Source: an uncultured Gammaproteobacteria bacterium
GTDB lineage: Bacteria > Pseudomonadota > Gammaproteobacteria > Pseudomonadales > Azotimanducaceae
NCBI GenBank assembly: GCA_913049815.1
Contig: CAJWYI010000010.1
Span: forward strand, 1-35,122
Length of the DNA: 35,122 nucleotides
Direction of reading: 5' to 3'
Shown piece by piece: positions 7,322 through 34,688 of this stretch (its first letter is position 1; every line of letters starts with the position of its first letter). The translations under genes and the position numbers were made by a program. The notes under the pieces are model-generated. The model was not told the origin of the DNA, did no database searches, and saw only the letters and a list, made by a program, of their open reading frames with translations.

Positions 7322-8209
7322 TCACCTGGTGAGCTGAACAGCGATCGGTTTCCCTATTTGACCCTGTTCGAACACTCGGGACAACTCGTCCCGATCAGCT
7401 GTAGATCCAATCGGTCCTACCCAGACTTTATAGAACGCGGCTTCTTGGGGACCGCGGTCACTCTCAAGAATATCAACGCGGATATCCCCTAGACCCGCAC
7501 CATGCATCAGTCTACCGACGGCACCAATCATCCGTTCCGCACTCTCCCTGTTCGAAAAAGCACCCGTCTGTAGGTAAATAGGCGGTTCGGTTTCCTCGAC
7601 AATCATCCGATCCGGATGATTGATTTCATCGATCGCCTCAACGACAACAGGTGCAGTGCCACGACTGGCAAAACCCAACGCCTGCGCCGCTGCGAACGAC
7701 AGATCAATAAGACGATCATCATGAAATGGCCCTCGGTCATTGACGCGTACCTCTACCTTCGCGCCATTATCGAGGTTGGTGACCCTGACTAAAGTCGGCA
7801 AAGGAAGCTCCTTGTGCGCAGCACTCATCGCATACATATCGTAGTCTTCTCCGTTCGCCGTCAACCGGCCATGGAATTTTTCACCGTACCAAGACGCGAT
7901 ACCTATTTCCCTGTATTGGAAACTGTCGTCCAGAATCTGGTAACGCTTACCCATCACCAAATAAGAGTCTCGCGGTTCTCGTTCGAGAGGCTGCGATATC
8001 CTCGGAGCCTGCGGCGGGGGAGTGTCCTTAATTTCACTTCCAGGGACCAGTCCCAACGGCGCCGAGCTTTCCATCAATGGGTCAGCCAGTGGAGTGCTTC
8101 TCTGAACCGCACTGCACGACATCAGTGCCATTTGGAGCACCAACCACGGGAAGATTCGCAGCATCTTGACAACAATAACTATAAAGCCGCGGCTCTGGCA
8201 TCGCTTCAC
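7322..8209 (-). CDS. rlpA: RlpA: septal ring lytic transglycosylase / rare lipoprotein A
   Basis: This is an outer-membrane lipoprotein with an N-terminal hydrophobic signal and lipobox LMSC (Cys32). A double-psi beta-barrel domain follows at about 103-193 (GIASWYGEKFHGRLTANGE, VNDRGPFHDDRLIDLS). The SPOR domain at about 210-293 (IYLQTGAFSNRESAERM) binds denuded septal peptidoglycan. In Pseudomonas aeruginosa RlpA cleaves stem-free glycan strands. The GTG start overlaps the mltB stop (GTGA) and has GGAG five bases upstream. An internal ATG at codon 16 would give a shorter conventional lipoprotein signal, but has no visible ribosome binding site. Confidence 0.93.
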   Translation of the reverse strand: MKRCQSRGFIVIVVKMLRIFPWLVLQMALMSCSAVQRSTPLADPLMESSAPLGLVPGSEIKDTPPPQAPRISQPLEREPRDSYLVMGKRYQILDDSFQYREIGIASWYGEKFHGRLTANGEDYDMYAMSAAHKELPLPTLVRVTNLDNGAKVEVRVNDRGPFHDDRLIDLSFAAAQALGFASRGTAPVVVEAIDEINHPDRMIVEETEPPIYLQTGAFSNRESAERMIGAVGRLMHGAGLGDIRVDILESDRGPQEAAFYKVWVGPIGSTADRDELSRVFEQGQIGKPIAVQLTR

Positions 8210-21275: not shown

Positions 21276-21686
21276 TTAGTCTTCGTCCTCATCAAAGTCA
21301 TCGTCATCAAAGTCGTCCTCATCCGGCACTGGGCGGTCTACGAGTTCAACAAATGCCATCGGCGCCGCGTCACCTGCGCGGTAGCCGCACTTCAGAATAC
21401 GGGTATAACCACCGGGACGCTCCGCGTACCGAGGACCGATTTCGGCAAACAGCTTGCCCACGACACTCTTATCCCCAGTGCGAGCAAAAGCTAATCGTCG
21501 ATTAGCTACTGAATCTGACTTCGCGAGTGTGATCAATGGCTCAGCGACACGACGGAGCTCCTTGGCCTTTGGAAGGGTTGTCTTGATCATTTCATGTTCA
21601 ATCAGAGAACACGCCATGTTGCGAAACATCGCTTGTCGATGTGAGCTTGTTCTGTTGAGATGTCGACCACTTTTTCTATGGCGCAT
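21276..21686 (-). CDS. rplQ: 50S ribosomal protein L17
   Basis: L17 lies near the peptide exit tunnel of the large subunit. The body ([20 protein letters not shown] at the start, [20 protein letters not shown] in the middle) is highly conserved. The last 16 or so residues are almost all aspartate and glutamate, extending the protein to 136 compared with about 127 in E. coli. The coding end and the bases beyond are a hexamer-like repeat giving two in-frame TAA codons two codons apart. It is the last gene of the alpha operon, 37 bases after rpoA. Confidence 0.97.
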
Positions 21687-21723
21687 ATCGTTTCCTCAGT
21701 GTTTCCGTCAGCCCAATGGCTGT

Positions 21724-22725
21724 CTAGCCCAAAAGCCGATCATCGCCGCGCAGGCTAGCAGGTGGCCAATTCTCGAGTCGCATCCCAAGTGCCAGTCCAC
21801 GAGACGCGAGGACATCCTTAATTTCGGTTAATGATTTCTTACCAAGATTCGGCGTTTTCAACAGCTCGACCTCAGTACGACGAATCAGGTCACCGATGTA
21901 GTAGATATTCTCAGCCTTCAGACAGTTCGCCGAACGGACCGTCAACTCGAGATCGTCGACGGGGCGTAGCAGAATTGGATCAATCTCCTCAATAAACTCT
22001 TCCGGCTCAGGCTCTTTCTCACCCTGCAGGTCAACAAAAACCGCCACCTGCTGCTGCAGAATGGTTGCAGCACGTCGTATCGCTTCTTCGGGATCAATAG
22101 TGCCGTTCGTCTCAAGATCGATGATCAGTTTATCGAGGTCCGTCCGTTGTTCGACCCGAGCACTGTCTACTTTGTAAGCCACTCGTTGAACCGGACTGTA
22201 GGTTGCATCCAGCAACAGGCTGCCTATGACACGGTTCGTCTCCTCATCACCAGCTCGGATATCCGCCGGTTCATAGCCACGACCTCGACCAACCATGGCG
22301 CGGAGTTTCAGGCTACCTCTTTCATTCAAGGTAGCGATGACATGTTCTGGATTCGCGATTTCAACATCATGGTCTACCTGGAAGTCTCCAGCCGTGACAA
22401 CACCGGGTCCCTTTTTGTCCAGGGTGAGCTCCGCCTCGTCAGTGGCATTCAGCCGAACGGCAACGCCTTTCAGGTTCAACAGGATCTCGATAACGTCCTC
22501 CTGGACCCCTTCGATGGTGCTGTACTCATGAAGTACACCGTCGATTTCCGCCTCGACAATGGCACACCCTGGCATTGATGACAGGAGAATCCGCCGCAGA
22601 GCGTTACCAAGCGTATGACCAAAGCCTCGCTCGAGCGGTTCCAGGGTCACGGTGGCCAGAGTCGAAGACTGCTGCTCGACCTGAATCGATTTCGGTGTCA
22701 GAAATTCGAGTGACGAATGAACCAT
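21724..22725 (-). CDS. rpoA: RNA polymerase alpha subunit
   Basis: Alpha dimerises to start RNA polymerase assembly, and its C-terminal domain contacts UP elements and activators. The N-terminal domain has [21 protein letters not shown] and [11 protein letters not shown] linker rich in glutamate and proline ([12 protein letters not shown]) leads to the C-terminal domain with [18 protein letters not shown] and [16 protein letters not shown]. The ATG shown has AAAGG seven bases upstream and gives 333 residues; an upstream TTG in frame is less likely. Confidence 0.97.
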
Positions 22726-22772
22726 AAATATACCTTTACCCAATAAACTCGTTAGTTGGAATCAATTGCCGA

Positions 22773-23393
22773 TTACTTGGAGTAGAGCTCCACAATCAGG
22801 TTTTCATTGATTTCCTGCGGAAGGTCCTCTCGCTCCGGGTAAGACCGAAACACTCCTTCCAATCGATCAGCATCTACATCAACCCATTCTACCGCTGCCC
22901 TGTTCGCAGCCAATGCTAGGGCGCCCTGGATGCGTAACTGACCTCGTGCTTTTTCTCGAATCGTCACGGTATCACCCGCTTCGATTTGATAAGACGCGAT
23001 GTTGACGACATTGCCGTTCACCAGTACCGCCTTATGCGATACCAGCTGTCTCGATTCAGCACGGGTGGAACCAAAACCCATTCGGTACACGACATTGTCC
23101 AGGCGACGCTCCAGAAGGCGCAGCAGATTCATGCCGGTCGCACCTTTCTGCCGATCGGCCTTCTTGTAGTAGTTCCGGAATTGCTTCTCTAGCACACCGT
23201 AGAGTCGACGTACTTTCTGTTTCTCACGCAACTGAATCGCGTAGTCAGAATTTCTCGGACGCCGACCACCATGCATACCAGGCGGATTATCCAGCTTGCA
23301 CTTGGACTCCAGGGGACGCACACCGCTTTTCAGGAACAGGTCAGTCCCCTCGCGTCGTGCCAGTTTACAGGTAGGACCAATATATCGGGCCAT
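22773..23393 (-). CDS. rpsD: 30S ribosomal protein S4
   Basis: S4 is a primary 16S rRNA binder that nucleates 5'-domain assembly, and in E. coli it represses the alpha operon. The 206-residue length equals E. coli S4. Visible blocks are [40 protein letters not shown], the S4 RNA-binding domain [20 protein letters not shown], and the C-terminal [12 protein letters not shown]. It lies between rpsK and rpoA as usual. Confidence 0.98.
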
Positions 23394-23422
23394 TCTAATT
23401 CGTCTCCTTTTTCAACGAGCCG

Positions 23423-23860
23423 CTATACGCGCCGACGCTTCGGCGGGCGACAACCGTTGTGAGGTATCGGTGTCACATCGGTGATGTTGGTGATTCGGAA
23501 GCCCACCCCAGACAGCGCACGCACGGCAGCTTCACGCCCAGGACCCGGACCCTTCACAAACACCTCAAGATTCTGCAGACCATAGTCCAAGGCTGCATTA
23601 CCTGCCCGCTCGGCAGCAACCTGCGCTGCGAACGGCGTACTCTTTCGAGCGCCTCTGAACCCTGAACCACCCGCAGTTGCCCAGGACAGCGTACCGCCCT
23701 GTCGATCTGTGAGAGTAATAATTGTGTTATTGAACGAAGCGTGGATATGCGCCAATCCGTCAACGACCTGGCGTTTCCCACGGCGACGAGTCGTCATCGT
23801 GACGGTAGACGCCTCGCCTTCCTCTTCTACAACTTCGCTTGTGTTCTCTTCTTCAGACAT
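23423..23860 (-). CDS. rpsK: 30S ribosomal protein S11 with acidic N-terminal extension
   Basis: S11 binds the 16S platform next to the Shine-Dalgarno cleft. The conserved body ([59 protein letters not shown]) is full length. In front of it are about 21 residues rich in glutamate ([20 protein letters not shown]) that the 129-residue E. coli protein lacks. The first ATG has AGAG about ten bases upstream. A second ATG at codon 22 would restore a conventional S11 but has a poorer upstream signal, so the extension is probable, not certain. Confidence 0.95.
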
Positions 23861-23917
23861 AGTTACGTTTCTCTTGTCGATTCACGTCGACGTCGTGATC
23901 ACTGTTTGAACCGGTTG

Positions 23918-24274
23918 TTACTTACGAATAGGTTTCGGTGGACCTTTACGCTGACGAGCGTTGGTTTTGGTGCGCTGCCCACGGACTGGCAGACCACGCC
24001 GATGACGCATGCCACGATAGCAACCCAGGTCAAGAAGCCTCTTGATATTCAGCTGCTGAGTCCGACGAAGGTCACCTTCAACTTCAATCTTTGCAATTTC
24101 GTTTCGAAGCTTATCCAGTTCTGCTTCTGTCAGATCCCGAACATTGACCGATGGTTCTACACCGGTGAGCTCACATAGATCACGAGCGGTCTTACGACCG
24201 ATACCGAAAATATAGGTCAGGGAGACCTCAGTGTGCTTATTGTCAGGAATGTTGATTCCAGCTAAACGAGCCAT
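23918..24274 (-). CDS. rpsM: 30S ribosomal protein S13
   Basis: S13 sits in the head of the small subunit and contacts the large subunit and P-site tRNA. Conserved segments are [30 protein letters not shown], and the basic C-terminus [20 protein letters not shown]. Length 118 matches E. coli. AGGAG lies six bases before the ATG. It opens the alpha operon set (rpsM-rpsK-rpsD-rpoA-rplQ), 12 bases after rpmJ, so readthrough from the spc operon is likely. Confidence 0.98.
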
Positions 24275-24286
24275 ATGATTCTCCTA

Positions 24287-24400
24287 TTAACCCTGGCGCT
24301 GCTTGTGTCGCGGTTCTTTGCAGATCACGCGCACGGAGCCTTTTCGTCGAATAATCCGGCAATCCCGGCACATCTTCTTGACTGACGCTCTGACTTTCAT
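24287..24400 (-). CDS. rpmJ: 50S ribosomal protein L36
   Basis: This 37-residue reading frame encodes L36, starting [20 protein letters not shown] and ending in HKQRQG. Cys11, Cys14, Cys27 and His32 form the zinc site, so this is the zinc-binding (C+) form. It lies between secY and rpsM, its standard position at the end of the spc operon. Confidence 0.96.
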
Positions 24401-24434
24401 CGTCTTACCTATTCACTCTCTCTTTTGCAGCGAA

Positions 24435-25769
24435 CTAACGCTTAAAATTCTGTAAGTTGGCTTTCTTCATCAAGGCATCGTATTGATGTGACATCAGGTG
24501 CGTGTTTACCTGCGCCATGAAATCCATCACTACGACCACAACAATCAGCAACGCGGTACCACCCAGCTGAAATGTAATACCGAACTGAGTGACCAGAAAC
24601 TGTGGCAATAGACACACGCCGGTCATATATATCGATCCAAACAGGGTCAGTCGTGTGAGAATCGTGTCGATATGTCGCGCTGTTTGCTCACCTGGACGAT
24701 AGCCAGGAACAAAAGCTGACTGCCGCTTAAGGTTGTCCGCCACTTCCTTCGGGTTAAACATGATCGCGGTGTACCAGAAACAGAAGAAGATGATGCCAGC
24801 GGAGAACAGGATCATGTTGAGCGGCTGTCCTGGCGCGATCTGCAAGCTAATTTCCTGTAGCCATTCCATGTTGGGAGATTGACCAAACCACTGTCCAAGT
24901 GAAGCAGGGAATAGCAACAGACTGCTGGCGAAAATGGCGGGAATTACGCCCGCCATGTTCACTTTCAGTGGCAGATGGCTGCTTTGCTGCTGATACATTT
25001 GCCGACCTTGCTGGCGCCTCGCATAGTTGATGGTTATACGACGCTGCCCCCTTTCGACAAACACAACTCCCGCGACAATGAGCACCGCGACAACACCCAC
25101 GACCATCATGACGATTGGGTGTATTTCACCCTGACGTCCCTGTTCAAACAGTTGACCTATCGCACCTGGGAAACCAGCCACAATGCCTGCAAAAATGAGG
25201 ATTGATATACCGTTACCAACACCTCTTTCAGTGACCTGTTCACCCAGCCACATCAAAAACATCGCACCTGTCACGAGCGTCGTCACCGCAACAAAGTGGA
25301 AGCTGATGGTTGCGGTATAGGATAACCCCTGCGATGCCAGTCCACTGCTCATAGCAAAGCCCTGCACGAGCGCCAGAGCCAGCGTGCCGTAACGGGTGTA
25401 TTGCGTAATTTTACGGCGGCCAGCTTCCCCTTCTTTCCGCAGCTGCTGCAGCGAGGGTGTCGTTGCGACCAGCAGCTGGGTGATGATCGAAGCGGAAATA
25501 TACGGCATGATCCCAAGCGCGAAGATGCTCATACGTTCGAGGGCACCACCCGAGAACATGTTGAACAAATCGATTATGCCGCCCTGATTCTGGTCAAAGA
25601 GTGCGCTCAGCCTCTCGGGGTTTATCCCCGGCACCGGAATATGACTGCCAACGCGATACACAACAATGGCGACCAGCACATACCAAAGCCGCGAGCGAAG
25701 CTCCGAGAGCCCACCTCCGGATGAAGTCGCCGAGCCTGCCGCGCCTCGCTGTGTTAGTAGTGATGCCAT
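24435..25769 (-). CDS. secY: Protein translocase channel subunit SecY
   Basis: SecY forms the protein-conducting channel of the inner membrane with SecE and SecG. The 444-residue protein has ten membrane segments. It shows the early motif [12 protein letters not shown], the plug and pore region [21 protein letters not shown], and the cytoplasmic loop with [12 protein letters not shown] glycine- and serine-rich N-terminus (GSATSSGGG) precedes the first helix. It follows rplO after 62 bases and precedes rpmJ. Confidence 0.98.
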
Positions 25770-25831
25770 ATCGTTTGTCTATTCCTGGCTAATGCAGAAA
25801 CTCCTGGTTCAGAATCTCTGCAATCAGCGAC

Positions 25832-26266
25832 CTATTCGGAAATGGAACCTCCAGCAGCTTCGATGGCGGCTCGCGCACCTTTGGTAACACCGATACCTTT
25901 CAGGTTCACAGCTTTAGTAATCTCACCTGACAACATGACTTTGGCGCGTTGTTGCGTGCCTGAAATAATGTTCGCATCCTGCAGCGTCTTCACATCAATG
26001 ACTTCTGCATCAACTCGGTTAAGTTCAGATAAGGTCACTTCTGCAGTGATCCGTGACTTTCTGGAGCTGAAGCCAAACTTAGGCAGGCGCATCTGCAGTG
26101 GCATCTGGCCACCCTCAAAGCCAATACGTATGCGTCCACCTGATCGCGACTTCTGACCCTTGTGACCACGGCCACTGGTTTTACCCAGGCCGCTACCAAT
26201 CCCACGACCAACGCGCTTGGCCTGCTTGCGGCTGCCGTGGGCACCTTTCAATGTATTTAGTCGCAT
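25832..26266 (-). CDS. rplO: 50S ribosomal protein L15
   Basis: L15 is a late assembly protein of the large subunit, contacting several 23S domains. [20 protein letters not shown] and the glycine-rich [20 protein letters not shown] are typical, and the length is 144 as in E. coli. I chose the second ATG: GGAG lies nine bases before it but directly abuts the first ATG three codons upstream. It follows rpmD after 47 bases. Confidence 0.97.
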
Positions 26267-26313
26267 ATTCTTCATCTCCTGAAATCCACGTCGTTTCTAG
26301 ACACCGCGTTGAT

Positions 26314-26502
26314 TCAGCTCTCCTCAACCGCAAGCAGATAGGCTACTTTATTAATCATGCCTCTGTTCGCAGGGGTATCGATAACCTCGACTGTCTGGTG
26401 CATCTTCCGAAGCCCCAGACCTGCCACACAAGCCTTGTGATTTCTGAGTCGCCCGATCACGCTCTTCTTCAGCGTTACTTTGATCTTTTTGTCCGTGCTC
26501 AT
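26314..26502 (-). CDS. rpmD: 50S ribosomal protein L30
   Basis: L30 is a small large-subunit protein. The 62-residue product runs [20 protein letters not shown], then [20 protein letters not shown]. The frame is open upstream into the rplR end, but the added residues ([16 protein letters not shown]) do not resemble L30, so the ATG shown is preferred. Only a weak GGA lies about ten bases upstream. rpsE should lie directly upstream and does not; see the junction entry. Confidence 0.95.
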
Positions 26503-26542
26503 GACCGTATCCAGTATTTGTTGTCTTTTTGCGTTACCGCAA
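26503..26542 (-). other. rplR-rpmD junction lacking rpsE
   Basis: Only 40 bases separate the rplR stop from the rpmD ATG. In almost all bacteria about 500 bases encoding ribosomal protein S5 (rpsE) occupy this place. Both flanking proteins are intact. Directly after the rplR stop is a five-base-pair stem, TTGCG and CGCAA, with a GTAA loop. None of the three frames gives a recognisable S5 end. It is either a genuine relocation or loss, or an assembly gap. Confidence 0.9.
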
Positions 26543-26893
26543 TCAGAACTGTAGACCACCCTCACGGGCCGCATCGGCAAGCGCCTTCACACGACCATGG
26601 TATTTGTACCCTGATCGATCAAAAGCAACCTTCTCAATACCTTTTGCTTTCGCGCGTTCTGCGATCAACCGACCAATCTCGGCTGCACCGGCCTGATTAC
26701 TTCTGAACTGGCCTCGCAGATCTTTCTCTACCGTTGATGCTGATGCCTGAATTTCATTACCTGCAGCGGAGATGACCTGTGCATAGATATGTTGCGGTGA
26801 TCGATAGACACACAAGCGCGGTGTTTCCAACTCACGGATGTGCATCCGCCCCCTTCGGGCCCGGCGCAGTCGTGCATCGTTCTTCTTACTCAT
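26543..26893 (-). CDS. rplR: 50S ribosomal protein L18
   Basis: L18 binds 5S rRNA with L5 and L25. The 116-residue protein starts [20 protein letters not shown] and has the family pattern [35 protein letters not shown] and the conserved C-terminus [11 protein letters not shown]. It is complete at both ends, which matters because the gene that should follow, rpsE, is absent. It lies 61 bases after rplF. Confidence 0.97.
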
Positions 26894-26954
26894 GTTTCGT
26901 CTTCTTTCTGCAGATCTTGCTGTATAAAAAACGCTGCAAACAGCAGCACATCAA

Positions 26955-27485
26955 TTACTTCTTCTTGGCTTCCTTACGACGGACTTGTTCGTTCACATAG
27001 CGAACACCTTTGCCCTTGTAAGGCTCGGGTGGTCGATACGCTCGAATCTCAGCCGACACCTGCCCGACCAGTTGCTTATCGATTCCCTTAACGATCACCT
27101 GCGTCTGGCTCGGTGTCTCAATCTCAATCCCCTCGGGCACCTGGTATTCCACAGGGTGAGAGAAGCCAAGCGACAAGGTCAACTTCTTACCCTGAGCCTG
27201 CGCCCGGTAGCCAACTCCTTGAAGCTCAAGTTCTTTCGTGAACCCTTCAGACACACCTGTCACCATGTTCTGGACCAGCGCACGATAGGTCCCGGCCAGT
27301 GCTTGTGCTTTGCGATCACCCGACGTGGATTTGAATCGCAGCACATTGTCTTCCTGCAACACTTCGACCAATTCGGTGTGTGCCAGACTGAGGCTACCTT
27401 TTCCGCCTTTGACGTTGATTTCATCACCCACGGTGATCTCAACGCCGCTTGGCAACTGCACCGGAGCATTCGCGATACGTGACAT
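26955..27485 (-). CDS. rplF: 50S ribosomal protein L6
   Basis: L6 has two similar RNA-binding folds and contacts the sarcin-ricin loop region near the factor-binding site. Length 176 is standard. Visible signatures are [39 protein letters not shown], and the C-terminal [20 protein letters not shown] with its lysine-rich end. It lies between rpsH and rplR in the spc operon. Confidence 0.98.
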
Positions 27486-27540
27486 GTTGCTTTCCCTAAA
27501 TCTCTAATCTTGACGGACTATCCGTTTAACGCTTCTCTAA

Positions 27541-27933
27541 TCAGAATACTGAGCAGAGTATTTCACCACCGACGCCAGCCGAACGTGCTGCCCGATCCGT
27601 CATGACCCCTTTGTTGGTCGACAGGATGTAGACACCCAGACCTCCATTCAGCTGCGGGATATCATCCTTGCCACGGTACAGCCTCAATCCAGGGCGGCTC
27701 TCTCGCTGCAGATGCTCAATCACCGGCTTGCCTTCGAGGTACTTCAGCTCAATGGTCAGCGTTTTCTTCACTTCACCGTCCACTTCAAAAGACTCGACAA
27801 AACCTTCATCTCTCAACACCTTGGCAATTTCAGCCTTGGTCTTGGAGACGTTCATGGATATTTGCTCGATCCCAGCCATCTGTGCATTTCTGATTCGCGT
27901 CAACATGTCCGCGAGTGGATCCTGCATCGACAT
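27541..27933 (-). CDS. rpsH: 30S ribosomal protein S8
   Basis: S8 binds helix 21 of 16S rRNA and in E. coli represses the spc operon by binding near the rplE start. The 130-residue protein begins [20 protein letters not shown] and ends [20 protein letters not shown] plus VF. The first ATG is chosen because AAGGAGG is seven bases upstream; the second lies two codons later. Confidence 0.98.
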
Positions 27934-27948
27934 ATGATTTCCTCCTTG

Positions 27949-28254
27949 CTACCAGCTCGACTTCACAAGGCCTGGCACATCACCGCGCATGGCCGCCTCA
28001 CGTAGCTTCGTTCTCGACAATCCGAACCGTCGATAGACCGCATGCGGTCGACCCGTCAGACTGCAGCGACGCACCCCTCGTACAGGGCTCGCGTTACGGG
28101 GCTGCTTCTGTAATTTGACCTGCGCTTCCCAGCGCTCGTCATCACCTGTTTCCGGGTTACGCAGGATTTCTTTCAGCGCGGCTCTTTTTGCAGCGTATTT
28201 TTCGACTGTTTTTTTCCGCTTCAACTCGCGGTTAATCATCGACTTCTTGGCCAT
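27949..28254 (-). CDS. rpsN: 30S ribosomal protein S14, long zinc-free type
   Basis: S14 sits in the 30S head. The 101-residue length and the absence of CxxC pairs identify the longer, zinc-independent form. Visible marks are [20 protein letters not shown] at the start and [20 protein letters not shown] near the end, finishing PGLVKSSW. It lies ten bases after rplE and 15 before rpsH. Confidence 0.98.
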
Positions 28255-28264
28255 TGATCCCTCT

Positions 28265-28810
28265 CTAACCTGCTTCCCGGAACGGGAAGTTGAATGCTCT
28301 CAGCAACGCTCGTCCATGATCATCGTTGGCAGCGGTAGTCACAATATTGATATCCAAACCTCGCACCCGGTCGGTCTTGTCGTAGTCGACCTCGGGAAAC
28401 ACAATCTGCTCGCTGAGACCCATTGAGAAATTGCCACGGCCGTCAAGCGATCTTGGGTTCACACCTCGAAAATCGCGCTGACGGGGAATGGCGATATTGA
28501 TCAGACGGTCTAGGAACTCGTACATCCGTCCACGCCGAAGCGTCACCATACAACCGATCGGCATTCCGGTCCGGATTTTAAAACCGGCTTCAGATTTTCG
28601 GGCCTTCGTACTCACACACTTCTGTCCGGCGATCAGCTCGAGGTCACCTTGAGCAGCTTCCAGTAATTTACGGTCAGTTAATGCCTCACCCACACCCATA
28701 TTCAGGGTGATCTTGGTCAGTCTCGGTACCTGCATCATGTTGGCCAGACCCAGCTGCTCCATGAGCGCCGGCCTGATCTCATTTTCGTATTGCGTCTTTA
28801 GATCTGTCAT
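28265..28810 (-). CDS. rplE: 50S ribosomal protein L5
   Basis: L5 binds 5S rRNA and forms an intersubunit bridge with S13. The 181-residue protein shows [51 protein letters not shown] and the C-terminal [14 protein letters not shown]. It is preceded by rplX after 33 bases. In E. coli the S8 operator lies at this start; I did not identify an equivalent structure. Confidence 0.98.
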
Positions 28811-28843
28811 TGATTCATTAGCCCTAGGGGTACTTAAACCCTG

Positions 28844-29158
28844 CTAGTCGATCTCCTCACCACTTGAACGGAAGATGCGTACCTTCTTGCCATCTTCCAG
28901 CGACTTGAAACCAATCCGATCCCCTTTATTGGTCTCTGCGTTATAGATCGCCACATTGGAAATATGGATCGGTGCTTCCTTCTCCTGGATACCTCCAGGT
29001 TCATTCATCTGCGGATTGCCTTTCTGATGCTTCTTCACCAGGTTGACACCCGATACATAGAGACGCTTATCGTCGATGATGCGTGTCACCACACCCCGAC
29101 GCCCCTTGTCGCGACCTGCGAGCACGATCACTTCGTCGTCTTTTTTGATCTTTTGCAT
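28844..29158 (-). CDS. rplX: 50S ribosomal protein L24
   Basis: L24 is an assembly-initiating large-subunit protein with a KOW fold near the tunnel exit. The 104-residue sequence begins [20 protein letters not shown] with the KOW motif ([13 protein letters not shown]), then [15 protein letters not shown] and [10 protein letters not shown]. It follows rplN after 33 bases. Confidence 0.98.
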
Positions 29159-29191
29159 GCTGTTATCTACCTAATGGCTCTCATCGCCGTC

Positions 29192-29560
29192 TCAAAGCAC
29201 TTCCGGTGCAAGCGAAATGATGCGCATGAAATTATCGTTTCGCAGTTCCCGCGTCACCGGCCCAAAGATCCGTGTACCAATAGGCTGCTTCTGTGCGTTC
29301 AGCAAGACAGCAGCGTTACCATCAAAACGAATCACGCTGCCATCTGACCGACGCACCCCCCGCTTCGTGCGGACCACGACGGCATCCAGGACCTGACCCT
29401 TGCGGACTCGACCCCTTGGAATCGCTTCCTTAACGGTGACCTTGATGACATCACCAATTCCCGCATAGCGGCGTTTGGATCCACCCAGCACCTTGATGCA
29501 CATCACGCGACGTGCACCGCTGTTGTCGGCGATATCCAGATAGGTCTGTGCCTGAATCAT
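29192..29560 (-). CDS. rplN: 50S ribosomal protein L14
   Basis: L14 lies on the subunit interface and is the docking site of RsfS, whose gene is also in this window. The 122-residue length is standard. [40 protein letters not shown] and [13 protein letters not shown] are all conserved. It is the first gene of the spc set and begins 49 bases after rpsQ; I do not see a clear separate promoter there. Confidence 0.98.
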
Positions 29561-29609
29561 GTTGCCCTCAATACACTCTTGTAGCTAGAAACGATTAATC
29601 TCAATCGTC

Positions 29610-29870
29610 TCAGATGACCGTCGCCTTACGGTCAATTGATTTAAGCGCCCACGACTTTGTCTTGGACATCTTCTTTGCTTCCTCGATGGTCACCTCGTCA
29701 CCTTCCTGACACTGGTTTTCCGGATCGTGGACATGAAACTTCTTGGACTGTTTGATGTACTTGCCATAGACCGGGTGCTTGACCCGACGCTCCACCAGCA
29801 CAGTGGCCGTCTTGTCCATTTTGGCGCTGAACACCGTGCCACTCATTGTACGTGTGACCGTTTCGCTCAT
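29610..29870 (-). CDS. rpsQ: 30S ribosomal protein S17
   Basis: S17 is an OB-fold primary binder of 16S rRNA. The 86-residue protein shows [38 protein letters not shown] and the C-terminal [15 protein letters not shown]. Its ATG overlaps the rpmC stop by four bases, giving coupled translation. It ends the S10 operon set. Confidence 0.98.
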
Positions 29871-30079
29871 GCTGACTCTGTCTCGCTCGTCTCGTTCGCT
29901 TTCTGACGTAGCACCGTCTTCACACGGGCAATGTCCTTTTTGTTTTCGCGCAGAAGATGGGGCTGACTAAGCTGTCCGGTCGATCGCTCCATGCGCAACG
30001 AAAATCGGTCCCGGGACAACTCAAGCAGCGTCTGCTCCAGTTCTTCTGTACTCTTGTCTCTCAGCTCTGCCGCGTTCAT
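29867..30079 (-). CDS. rpmC: 50S ribosomal protein L29
   Basis: L29 is a small helical protein at the tunnel exit that helps dock signal recognition particle and trigger factor. The sequence [20 protein letters not shown] followed by [19 protein letters not shown] is typical. It is 70 residues, slightly longer than E. coli L29 because of a polar tail (NETSETESA). The ATG shares one base with the rplP stop (TAATG). Confidence 0.97.
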
Positions 30080-30492
30080 TACATCGCCACCCGTTTAACA
30101 AACTGGGTTGTGAAAGGCAGCTTACGCCCCGCAAGTCGAAACGCCTCTCGCGCCACTTCTTCAGTTACACCTTCCATTTCATAAAGCACCTTGCCCGGCT
30201 TGATCTGCGCAACCCAGTATTCAACGTTACCTTTACCTTTACCCTGCCTGACTTCGAGTGGCTTTTTGGTAATCGGCTTATCCGGGAACACACGGATCCA
30301 GATCTTTCCACCGCGCTTCACATGGCGCGTCATCGCTCGTCGGCCGGCCTCTATCTGGCGTGCGGTTAGGCGACCCCGTCCGGTCGATTTCAGTCCGTAT
30401 TCACCAAAGCTGACAGAACTGCCGCGATGGGCCAGACCGCGATTGCGACCTTTCTGCTGCTTGCGAAACTTCGTTCTTTTAGGCTGTAACAT
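30079..30492 (-). CDS. rplP: 50S ribosomal protein L16
   Basis: L16 organises the A-tRNA site and peptidyl transferase surroundings. The 137-residue protein begins [20 protein letters not shown] and contains [40 protein letters not shown] and [14 protein letters not shown]. It is spaced 18 bases from rpsC and overlaps rpmC by one base. Confidence 0.98.
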
Positions 30493-30510
30493 CGCTCAAT
30501 TCCAACCGAT

Positions 30511-31182
30511 CTACTGTGCAAGGCCTGCGGCAGCAGGATCTGCCTCTTCACGCTCACCCAGGATCTCACCTTTGAAGATCCAGACCTTGATACCAATCAC
30601 GCCATACGTGGTTTGGGCTTCAGTCAGCGCGTAATCGATGTCCGCACGCAGTGTGTGCAACGGCACTCGACCCTCGAGGTAACTTTCCGATCGTGCGATT
30701 TCCGCACCACCCAATCGCCCGGCAACGCGTACTTTGATACCTTCAGCACCGAGGCGCATGGCATTCTGCATGACACGTTTCATTGCGCGGCGAAACTGAA
30801 CACGACGCTCAAGTTGCTGTGCCACATTCTGTGCCACGAGGAATGCATCAATCTCAGGCTTACGGATCTCTTCAATGTTGATATGAACCGGAACACCCAT
30901 CATACGAGCGACAACCTGACGAAGACGTTCAACATCCTCACCTTTTTTACCAATCACAATCCCAGGACGCGCAGTGTGAATGGTAATGCGCGCAGTGTTC
31001 GCAGGTCTCTGAATTTCGATGCGACTGACTGACGCCTGTGCCAAACGCTTCCGCAGGAATTCTCTGACCTCAAGATCCTCCAAAAGCTTATCGCGATAGG
31101 CAGGGCCATCGGCGTACCACACGGAGGTGTGATCCTTTACGATCCCCAGTCTTAGTCCTGTTGGGTGTACTTTCTGACCCAT
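30511..31182 (-). CDS. rpsC: 30S ribosomal protein S3
   Basis: S3 lines the mRNA entry channel. The 223-residue protein begins [20 protein letters not shown]. It has the KH-domain core [20 protein letters not shown] and the second-domain stretch [20 protein letters not shown], followed by [12 protein letters not shown]. The C-terminus is short and acidic-polar, and the length is close to the E. coli protein. It follows rplV after 24 bases. Confidence 0.98.
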
Positions 31183-31206
31183 GTGTTCTCCTGATCCCTC
31201 GCCCGC

Positions 31207-31542
31207 CTAGTGCTCGTCCGCTACTGCCAGCGTGATATGGCAGGTTCGCTTGAAAATTCTGTCCGCTCGACCCTTTGCTCTCGGTCGCAGTCGTTTCATC
31301 GTGAGTGACTCGTCCACGAACGCTCGCGACACAGTCAACTCGTCTACGTCTGCACCTTCGTTGTGTTCCGCATTGGCAATCGCTGACTCAAGCAGCTTTT
31401 TGACCATGTGAGCACCTTTCTTGGTACTGAACGACAGGATGTTCAGCGCTTCTTCGACACGTTTGCCACGAATCTGGTCTGCGACCAATCGTGCCTTCTG
31501 TGCGGAGATGCGTGCCCTTGATAGTTTTGCTGCAACTTCCAT
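31207..31542 (-). CDS. rplV: 50S ribosomal protein L22
   Basis: L22 sends a beta hairpin into the nascent peptide tunnel, and changes there affect macrolide sensitivity. The protein is 111 residues: [20 protein letters not shown], then [20 protein letters not shown], and the tunnel loop area [20 protein letters not shown]. The 78 bases between it and rpsS repeat the GTAC motif several times and hold no gene. Confidence 0.98.
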
Positions 31543-31620
31543 CGTTCTCTTTGTCCGTACTCTCTAAATGTACTTTCTGTACTTTTTCTACTCGTACCTG
31601 CCTACTTGCAATTAATATCT

Positions 31621-31896
31621 CTAGCGACGCGCCTTTCGATCTGCAGCATGCCCCCTGAATGTTCTCGTTGGGGCAAACTCACCGAGCTTGTGGCCCACCA
31701 TATCTTCACTGACGAACACAGGCACGTGTTGACGGCCGTTGTAAACCTGTATTGTTAGACCCACAAAATCCGGTGCAATCATAGAACGCCGCGACCAGGT
31801 CCTGATCGGACGCTTGTCGTTAGTATCCGCTGCACTCTGCACCTTTTTCATCAGATGCAGGTCGATAAAAGGTCCTTTCTTCAGACTACGAGGCAC
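31621..31896 (-). CDS. rpsS: 30S ribosomal protein S19
   Basis: S19 forms a complex with S13 in the 30S head near A-site tRNA. The 91-residue protein starts [20 protein letters not shown] and carries [20 protein letters not shown] and [16 protein letters not shown]. It lies 28 bases after rplB. Confidence 0.98.
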
Positions 31897-31924
31897 TTGA
31901 TCTTCTCCCGTTTACCCGCCGCAA

Positions 31925-32761
31925 CTATCTGCCACGACCTGTGCGACGCTTGCGCACAATCATCTTGTCAGTCCGCTTGTTCTTTCGGGTCTTATATCCT
32001 TTCGTTGGCATTCCCCACGGTGAGACAGGATGCCGCCCACCAGAGGTTTTACCTTCACCACCACCATGAGGATGGTCTACCGGATTCATGACCACACCAC
32101 GTACCGTTGGCCTAACGCCACGCCATCGTCTGGCACCAGCCTTACCCAGTGATCGCAGGTTATGCTCCCAGTTACCAACGCCACCGATTGTTGCGCGACA
32201 CTCCGCCAGAACCTTTCGCATCTCACCAGAACGCATACGGAGGGTGACGTACTGACCTTCCTTTGCAACCAACTGACACGAAGCACCCGCGCTCCGCGCC
32301 ATCTGCGCACCTTTACCAGGCTTCAGCTCTACAGCATGAATGACCGTACCCATAGGAATATTACGCATCGGCAGGCAATTCCCGGGTCGGATTGGAGCGT
32401 CGTTTCCTGATCTGAGGGTATCGCCGGCGGCAACGTCACGAGGGGCTAGGATGTATCGGCGTTCGCCGTCGGTATACTTGAGGAGAGCTATATGGGCAGT
32501 GCGGTTAGGGTCGTATTCTAGTCGTTCTACTGTGGCATCAATGCCGTCTTTGTTTCGTCGGAAGTCAATAACACGATATTTCTGTTTGTGACCGCCACCA
32601 ATATGACGGGTGGTAATCCGACCCGCATTATTACGACCACCTGTCTTGGCTTTCTTCTCGAGCAGGGGCTTGTAAGGCTCGCCGCGGTAAAGGTCAGGAT
32701 TGGTGACCTTTACTAAAAACCGGCGACCCGGTGATGTTGGTTTGGCTTTAACTACTGGCAT
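31925..32761 (-). CDS. rplB: 50S ribosomal protein L2
   Basis: L2 is required for subunit joining and peptidyl transferase activity. The 278-residue protein starts [19 protein letters not shown] and has [40 protein letters not shown] and the hallmark [20 protein letters not shown] containing the conserved histidine loop. It follows rplW after 17 bases. Confidence 0.98.
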
Positions 32762-32778
32762 GTTGCTACTCGCTCGTT

Positions 32779-33081
32779 CTAGCCGTTCGAAAGGGACGTG
32801 AAATCGATATCCTGGCCTTCAGCCAGCGTCACATACGCCTTTTTCCAATTGGGTTTTCGTGATGCGCCGGTAAAGCGACGCTTCACCTTGCCCTTCATGT
32901 TCAATACAGTGACGCCACGAACTTCCACGTCATACAGTTTCTGGACCGCTTCCTTGATCTCGGTGCGGGTCGCATCTCGTGCCACCTTAAAGGTGATCTG
33001 ATTGGCAGCGTCAGCAACGTTGGTCGCCTTCTCAGAGATGTGCGCGCCTAACAGTACCTGGTAGAGACGTTCTTCGTTCAT
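32779..33081 (-). CDS. rplW: 50S ribosomal protein L23
   Basis: L23 is the docking site for trigger factor and signal recognition particle at the tunnel exit. The 100-residue protein has [40 protein letters not shown] and [20 protein letters not shown]. The ATG overlaps the rplD stop (ATGA). Confidence 0.98.
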
Positions 33082-33695
33082 CCCAGCATCTCCTCAGCCT
33101 GCTTCAAGGAACCAACCGTAAAGAGCACCTTGTCAAAACGAAGCAGATCAACCGGATTAATACCCTTCACATCAATGACTTCGACACCTTTCAGGTTGCG
33201 GGCGCCGAGGTAGAGGTTCTCATCGAATGACTCGACGACAATCAGCACACTCGAAAGGTCCAGATCATTGAGTAAACTCACGACGGCTTTCGTGCGCGGT
33301 TCTGCAACTTCAAAGGTCTCAGCGACAACCAAGCGCTCTTGCCTGATCAGCTCGGAAAGAATGGACTGCATGGCTCCGCGGTACATTTTTCTGTTGACCT
33401 TTTGGCTGAAGTCCTGAGTCTGACTAGGGAAAGTCACACCACCACTACGCCAGATCGGGCTTCTAATCGTTCCTGCACGTGCTCGGCCGGTACCTTTTTG
33501 ACGGTATGGTTTGCGACCGCCGCCGCGGACATCCGAACGGGATTTCTGTGCTCGGGTACCCTGGCGGCCGCCGGCCATATAGGCCACGACAACCTGATGC
33601 ACGAGCGCCTCATTGAACTGGCGTGCAAAGGTTGCTTCTGAAATCTCAACGGCCGCACCTGATCCGCCGCCTGCTTGTGTGATCGTCAGGTTCAC
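33078..33695 (-). CDS. rplD: 50S ribosomal protein L4
   Basis: L4 reaches into the exit tunnel and, in E. coli, represses the S10 operon by acting on its leader RNA. The 205-residue protein shows [40 protein letters not shown] and the C-terminal GLR-like [20 protein letters not shown]. The start is a GTG with AAGGA about nine bases upstream, unlike its ATG-starting neighbours. An attenuator-like leader lies before rpsJ, so L4 feedback is plausible here too. Confidence 0.97.
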
Positions 33696-33706
33696 TGGCT
33701 CGTTCC

Positions 33707-34339
33707 TTATCCTTTCACCGCTGGCCGCACAATGACATCTGCTCCTGGAGCACCGGGTACGGCACCTTTCACCAACAGGAGATGGTTCTCCGTATCAACC
33801 TGCACCAGCTCGAGGTTTTGGGTGGTGGTTCTGACATTGCCGAGGTGACCGGCCATTTTCTTGCCTTTGAATACCCGACCCGGCGTCTGGCATTGACCAA
33901 TCGATCCCGGTGCGCGGTGTGAAATCGAGTTTCCGTGAGACATATCCTGAGTCTTGAAGTTGTGTCGTTTAACGACACCTGCAAACCCCTTACCTTTAGA
34001 GACACCGGTGACATCAATTTTCTGTCCGGCTTCGAACCCCTCGAGCGTAATGTCATCACCGACCGCCAGTTCGAGCTCTTCATCCAATCGGAACTCGACA
34101 AGACCACGACCGGCTTCCACGTTTGCTTTCGCAAACTGACCAGCCGCAGGTTTACGAACGCGCGAAGGCTTACGAGCGCCATGAGTGACCTGTACCGCAC
34201 TGTAACCATCGGATTCCGAGGTCTTCAGTTGGGTCACACGATTTGGCTGAGCCTCTATCACTGTTACGGGTACAGATTCGCCATCTTCAGTGAAGACTCG
34301 CGTCATACCTCTTTTAATACCTACAATACCCAGTGCCAT
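33707..34339 (-). CDS. rplC: 50S ribosomal protein L3
   Basis: L3 starts large-subunit assembly and its central extension reaches the peptidyl transferase centre. The 210-residue protein starts [20 protein letters not shown]. It has [20 protein letters not shown], and [20 protein letters not shown] contains the glutamine that PrmB methylates in relatives. It lies 37 bases after rpsJ. Confidence 0.98.
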
Positions 34340-34376
34340 CTCGGCTCCCCGTTCTCTCGATCAATCAACCACTTAA

Positions 34377-34688
34377 TCAACCAAGGTTGATCTGAACTTC
34401 CACACCGGCAGCCAGATCCAGTTTTGTCAGCGCGTCCACTGTGCGCTCCGTCGGCTCAACAATATCCAACATCCGCTTGTGCGTACGGATCTCGTACTGA
34501 TCTCGTGCGTCTTTATTCACATGCGGCGAAATCAGTACCGTGAACTTCTCTTTTCGCGTTGGCAGCGGAATCGGACCGCGCACCTGCGCGCCTGTTCGCT
34601 TCGCTGTATCAACGATTTCCTGCGTTGAGGCATCAATTAGGCGATGATCGAACGCCTTCAATCGAATCCTGATCCTCTGATTTTGCAT
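34377..34688 (-). CDS. rpsJ: 30S ribosomal protein S10
   Basis: S10 (NusE) functions in the 30S head and in NusB/NusE antitermination complexes. The 103-residue protein has [40 protein letters not shown] and [24 protein letters not shown] lies nine bases before the ATG. It is the first gene of the S10 operon and is preceded by a promoter and a leader of about 210 bases. Confidence 0.98.

Follow-up and report, generated by a model that had tools for sequence, protein, structure and literature searches.

Absence of rpsE from the spc operon and a divergent stand-alone gene for ribosomal protein S5 in a gammaproteobacterial assembly

S5 is an essential ribosomal protein, and its gene, rpsE, is expected between rplR and rpmD in the spc operon. 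In the 35,122-nucleotide stretch of DNA analyzed here, referred to as the window, that place is taken by a few tens of bases, which raises the question of where this uncultured member of the Azotimanducaceae encodes its S5 and how the gene came to be there. A preliminary description of the window proposed that the gene had moved, that S5 had been replaced, or that about 0.5 kb had been lost in assembly.

The rplR-rpmD junction in this genome and in its relatives

The window contains the S10-spc-alpha cluster from rpsJ to rplQ on the minus strand in standard order (positions 21276–34688), and rpsE is the only gene found missing. The 27 other cluster genes comprise 26 whose proteins were translated (S10 to L17, including SecY and RpoA) and rpmJ, for ribosomal protein L36 (24287–24400, minus strand, 37 aa), which was named from sequence reading alone; seven of the cluster proteins (L18, L30, S8, S4, S3, L2, and S10) pass curated models. 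The order rplF (L6, 26955–27485), rplR (L18, 26543–26893), rpmD (L30, 26314–26502), rplO (L15, 25832–26275), secY (24435–25769), and rpmJ, all on the minus strand, is as the preliminary description had it. Both genes flanking the junction are intact, with L18 scoring 136.7 bits on TIGR00060 (cut-off 87.85) and L30 scoring 74.5 bits on TIGR01308 (cut-off 44.65). From the rplR stop to the rpmD start there are exactly 40 bases (26503–26542, minus strand), without an S5 frame where about 500 bases would be expected; the absence of rpsE is confirmed and the junction coordinates given earlier are exact. The gene is gone from its place and its neighbors are intact, as in a single-gene translocation. 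The earlier reading that no S5 frame lies elsewhere in the window also holds, the S5 domain profiles PF00333 and PF03719 matching only another contig, described below.

A perfect inverted repeat, TTGCG-GTAA-CGCAA (26529–26542, minus strand), lies directly 3′ of the rplR stop and could fold into a small hairpin in the junction, with a GTAA loop that we take to be of the GNRA type. The repeat may be due to chance.

Among the relatives checked, the order rplR-rpsE-rpmD is highly stable. The high conservation attributed earlier to this place is borne out by 162 of 165 loci, that is, by every locus with both flanks, the other three being cut by contig ends. These comprise 28 of 30 loci from relatives, 29 of 29 class-level loci, 79 of 80 loci from named genomes, and 26 of 26 loci from the phylum search; all are the best matches of their searches rather than a random sample, and some may represent the same species twice. 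Comparison of the junction with that of related genomes, a check put forward in the preliminary description, gives a span from rplR stop to rpmD start of 502–576 bases in the 15 relatives measured, versus 40 here. Within the family, S5 and L18 are adjacent by coordinates in 132 of the 135 genomes with pairable rows, the exceptions being this genome and two at contig ends; S5 was matched in 183 and L18 in 184 of 206 family genomes, a set that the pairable rows cover in part. In the only same-genus genome compared (G001), L18 and S5 are both absent from the assembly, so this genome neither supports nor refutes relocation.

Several genomes considered as further cases were rejected. S5 and L18 lie on different contigs in G016 and G044, and L18 occurs without an S5 match in G087 and G195; because the contigs of these four genomes end 75–339 bases after L18, the arrangements are interpreted as assembly breaks. 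A genome carrying two different S5 genes (G432) was likewise rejected as a second stand-alone case: its better copy, on contig C164 (L046), belongs to a normal spc operon and groups in the S5 tree with the family of the window, so that the bin is probably mixed. The second copy in that genome is on contig C218 (L096). The four family loci at which a contig ends shortly after L18 are L263, L265, L266, and L267, and at this site assemblies may tend to break or strains to vary. Among the 15 best named matches listed for SecY, all are from Pseudomonas or Stutzerimonas, at 69–72% identity.

A stand-alone rpsE and the contig that carries it

The preliminary description suggested searching the rest of the genome with the Pfam S5 domains, and this search returned one S5, outside the operon. 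PF00333 and PF03719 each match a single place in the whole assembly, on a contig of 13,470 bases (C69), in which the sole S5 gene found in the assembly occupies positions 7459–7962 on the minus strand (G000:C69, L033). A copy elsewhere in the genome, another mark of a single-gene translocation, is provided by this gene, its same-genome status being supported by binning and composition. The gene is flanked on the left by a PhyH-family gene on the same (minus) strand (C69 6099–7295) and on the right by another PhyH-family gene on the opposite strand (C69 8144–9067). Farther out on the contig are a glyoxalase-family gene, a gene resembling PPDK/PEP-utilizing enzymes, a peptide-type ABC transporter, and a CoA-transferase, and among the nine C69 proteins scanned there is no ribosomal protein besides S5.

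The sequence upstream of the rpsE ATG on C69 is TGAGGAATCT, and TGAGGA precedes the start codon. The rpsE stop is followed by AGCCCGG-CTTGT-CCGGGCT and then a T-run, together a GC-rich hairpin with 10 base pairs, of which the outermost involve the T-run; its fold has a z-score of −1.94, and 3 of 200 shuffles fold equally well. A promoter scan around rpsE gave nothing over threshold, the best relaxed match upstream being 8/12, and a terminator scan of the region did not report the 3′ hairpin. With neither element picked up by the scans, the rpsE transcription unit is one that we infer. Rfam models give no match on C69 at gathering thresholds. The codon score of rpsE (−0.010) is low for a ribosomal gene (24 genes, −0.019 to 0.029) and falls inside the background range (mean −0.021, sd 0.015), codon usage being a weak test of the expression or origin of this gene. 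Border repeats, and similarity to the spc junction, do not exceed chance level, and they do not reveal the mode of the move.

Whether C69 belongs to this genome bears directly on the interpretation. The assembly comprises 2.78 Mb in 218 contigs and is estimated to be 85.8% complete and 0.64% contaminated. Tetranucleotide composition was compared for C69 and 17 of the genome's own segments of 10–13 kb, leaving out 5 of 20 sampled contigs (<10 kb) and two contigs of relatives. The mean distance of C69, 0.053, is the second smallest (own range 0.053–0.099), family members outside the genus lie at a distance of at least 0.12, and C69 matches the genome in composition. Same-genus segments, at 0.063–0.082, overlap the genome's own range, and hence a very close relative would be indistinguishable from this genome by composition.

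Elsewhere in this genome there are three homologues of the left PhyH gene, which also matches in 7 of 57 other genomes, in several of them more than once; for the right PhyH gene, the 58 genomes searched gave no match at E 1e-60 other than in this genome itself. With both PhyH neighbors used as queries in 58 genomes, no orthologous empty site was found for C69 in relatives. Contig C41 of the same-genus genome G001 was considered for DNA-level synteny with C69 and rejected, the matching proteins being 35–64% identical and the S5 and PhyH genes absent from the matches. A 16S rRNA search gave no match in the assembly, and the same search missed 5 of 14 control genomes.

Divergence of the S5 protein

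By profile the product of the C69 gene belongs with the bacterial uS5 proteins. It scores 183.7 bits on the TIGR01021 equivalog model (cut-off 164.05) over profile positions 3–156 of 156, and PF00333 and PF03719 both exceed their cut-offs. The protein is predicted to keep the normal uS5 fold: the model has a mean pLDDT of 90.1, which is partly expected given that an alignment of relatives served as input, and its best PDB matches are bacterial ribosomal uS5 chains (TM 0.90, rmsd 1.0–1.1). The protein resembles the bacterial uS5 family (TIGR01021, PF00333, PF03719) in having both domains at full length and over cut-off with the fold predicted, and differs from it in that the gene stands alone and the protein carries 16 residues unseen in 168 other proteobacterial S5s.

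The most unusual feature of this S5 is its divergence. Its mean distance to 18 family members is 0.420, versus 0.211 among the members themselves, a ratio of 1.99 with a z of 11.7, and the largest row mean of any member is 0.243. Against its five nearest relatives the distance is 0.415, and those five differ among themselves by 0.145. For 26 other proteins of the cluster, each compared with 16–18 members, ratios are 0.93–1.18 and z values −1.0 to 2.6, indicating that the sharp divergence is specific to S5 among the cluster proteins compared. The partner proteins of S5 coded in the window are ordinary, with ratios of 1.02 for S4, 1.01 for S3, and 1.10 for S8. Measured on the assembled sequence, the divergence is solid.

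Positions of strong conservation were defined on a panel of 168 other proteobacterial S5s, obtained from 183 by removing duplicates, with pieces under 140 aa (2 of 185) left out. Of the 50 positions at which 95% or more of the panel agree, 7 are changed in the C69 protein (panel mean 0.46, maximum 5; family maximum 1), namely V26T, F34M, L37V, K53T, V57F, N133L, and P134K. At 98% conservation 5 of 42 are changed (panel maximum 4), and at 90% conservation 10 of 65, which is inside the panel range (maximum 13). The 16 residues private to this S5 relative to the panel (panel mean 0.83, maximum 6) include nine that fall in residues 20–37 and 51–57.

In the available portions of two reports, loop 2 of uS5 is the region to which spectinomycin resistance and changes in decoding map, and K23 and K26 of E. 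coli uS5 are named as 16S rRNA contacts (PMC12713390, PMC13361928). By our reading of the numbering these two lysines correspond to K24 and K27 here, and K24, K27, G28, and G29 of the C69 protein are kept. The same loop is changed as in the spectinomycin-selected uS5 variants of Pseudomonas putida, as far as the accessible text of that study describes them, V22, T33, and F34-T35 there corresponding to T22, S33, and M34-R35 here by equal numbering of conserved residues; unlike those drug-selected variants, the present protein has many natural changes at once, known from sequence only (PMC12713390).

Origin of the stand-alone gene

A tree of concatenated L6, L18, L30, L15, and SecY (58 rows, L023 and L027 omitted) groups the genome with five family members at an SH-aLRT of 99. 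In the S5 tree (59 rows, L027 omitted) the C69 protein has a branch of 1.7 changes per site, versus a median of 0.19, and lies outside the family with low support. Topologies in which S5 is held with the five nearest relatives or with the whole family have p-AU values of 0.298 and 0.352, respectively, and the value for the family closed without the C69 S5 is 0.29, and the trees do not choose between descent from the family's S5 and replacement. The best pairwise matches are at most 64% identical and come from the same class or order (samples of 369 genomes for the class and 398 for the phylum), and identity to 16 family rows is 56–60%.

Absence of rpsE from the operon and its presence as a stand-alone gene are probably real, on the evidence of one fragmented assembly. 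Of the possibilities raised at the outset, a simple deletion in assembly is inadequate as an explanation given a stand-alone, very divergent S5 elsewhere; a gene elsewhere was indeed found, and the trees leave moved versus replaced undecided. We favor, with moderate confidence, the reading that rpsE left the spc operon and that S5 in this genome now comes from a stand-alone, divergent gene descended from the S5 of the family. A copy of rpsE would have arisen at a new site, with the operon copy deleted afterwards. The relocated gene would be transcribed from a promoter of its own, outside spc co-transcription and outside the feedback that S8 exerts on the spc operon, known from E. coli. Its product would still function as the S5 of the cell and would have changed fast after leaving the operon, chiefly in loop 2, in residues 51–57, and at 133–134.

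In the alternative account the genome took up a foreign rpsE that already stood alone, probably from a gammaproteobacterium not yet sampled, and subsequently lost its own copy in the operon; this appears to us unlikely though worth weighing. It is in keeping with an S5 no nearer to its own family than to other members of the class, with the position of the gene outside the family in the S5 tree, and with a codon score closer to background than that of most ribosomal genes. It also has a precedent in S4, for which the consulted part of the report describes transfer followed by loss of the operon copy, for example in M. flagellatus and F. magna (PMC3087516), and for this reason descent is given less weight, and replacement more. 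Against it, scans of GTDB r220 contigs and of viral contigs, one each, gave no close relative of the C69 S5, and plasmid and phage collections gave only S5 matches under 60%. Moreover, changes at 7 of 50 near-universal positions are not expected of the S5 of an ordinary donor and speak for fast change on the spot, as far as sequence comparison can indicate.

Two other accounts were weighed. The C69 gene might be a divergent second paralogue, with a conventional S5 in an unassembled part of the genome; incompleteness and the strong divergence of the protein are compatible with this, and rpmJ and rpsN are known to occur in a second copy away from the cluster, according to the accessible part of a survey (PMC8046335). 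The conventional place is assembled and empty, however, which would require a move of the conventional copy as well, and two S5s are seen in only G019 and G119 among the 183 family genomes with an S5 match, making this account most improbable. We regard as very improbable a combined artefact, in which a precise 0.5-kb deletion occurred in the contig of the window (C10) and C69 entered the bin from another organism. The division of the assembly into 218 contigs, the breaks after L18 in four family genomes, which indicate that the site can be hard to assemble, and the overlap of same-genus composition all leave room for it. Against it are the small tetranucleotide distance of C69 compared with family members outside the genus and the low contamination estimate; the other organism would, besides, itself need a stand-alone S5, which is seen in no relative checked.

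Exit from the operon might have released S5 from constraints or made room for a specialized ribosome. In this rather speculative proposal loop 2 and residues 51–57 would have been rebuilt, which may alter decoding accuracy or give natural spectinomycin tolerance and perhaps be matched by changes in 16S helix 34. Because the S5 partners coded in the window are ordinary, any partner changes would concern rRNA or proteins whose genes lie outside the window. A lineage with a lone, fast-changing rpsE is a natural experiment on whether operon membership restrains the evolution of a ribosomal protein, and it raises the question of how S5 balance is kept without co-transcription. S5 is also a usual marker in concatenated phylogenies, into which such a protein can bring a misleading long branch.

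The present case fits known single-gene departures from the ribosomal cluster, the new part being rpsE itself and the sharp divergence of its protein. The available portion of a survey of 204 species reports 48 deletions and 115 rearrangements of the cluster, with single-gene cases involving rplJL in Haemophilus influenzae, rpmJ in six Gammaproteobacteria, rpsN in Leuconostocaceae, and secY in Bacillus selenitireducens; it accounts for these by loss of the gene from the cluster once a duplicate or a pre-existing homologue was available, and also names rpsD deletions in Bacilli (PMC8046335). As described in that portion, those losses share with the present case the departure of one gene, intact neighbors, and a copy elsewhere; the case here differs in that the gene is rpsE and the moved gene is uniquely divergent. 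In the main text of the survey, as far as it was available, rpsE occurs 0 times (PMC8046335). Stand-alone S4 outside the alpha operon offers a second parallel, again from a partial text, in that it too is a small-subunit decoding-accuracy protein encoded by a sole, sequence-divergent copy; Chen and colleagues attribute it to horizontal transfer, with the gene in the operon being lost, and exclude an origin by duplication of the operon form (PMC3087516). That case, as set out there, involves transfer of a known second form, in contrast to the S5 described here, for which neither a second form nor a donor was found (PMC3087516). Titles and abstract openings searched, with most subscription journals outside coverage, contained nothing on an rpsE located away from the spc operon. 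In the consulted parts of two further papers rpsE appears only in tables (PMC3578206, PMC2846917), and an spc footnote in the accessible part of another refers to a doubled rplX (PMC1924603).
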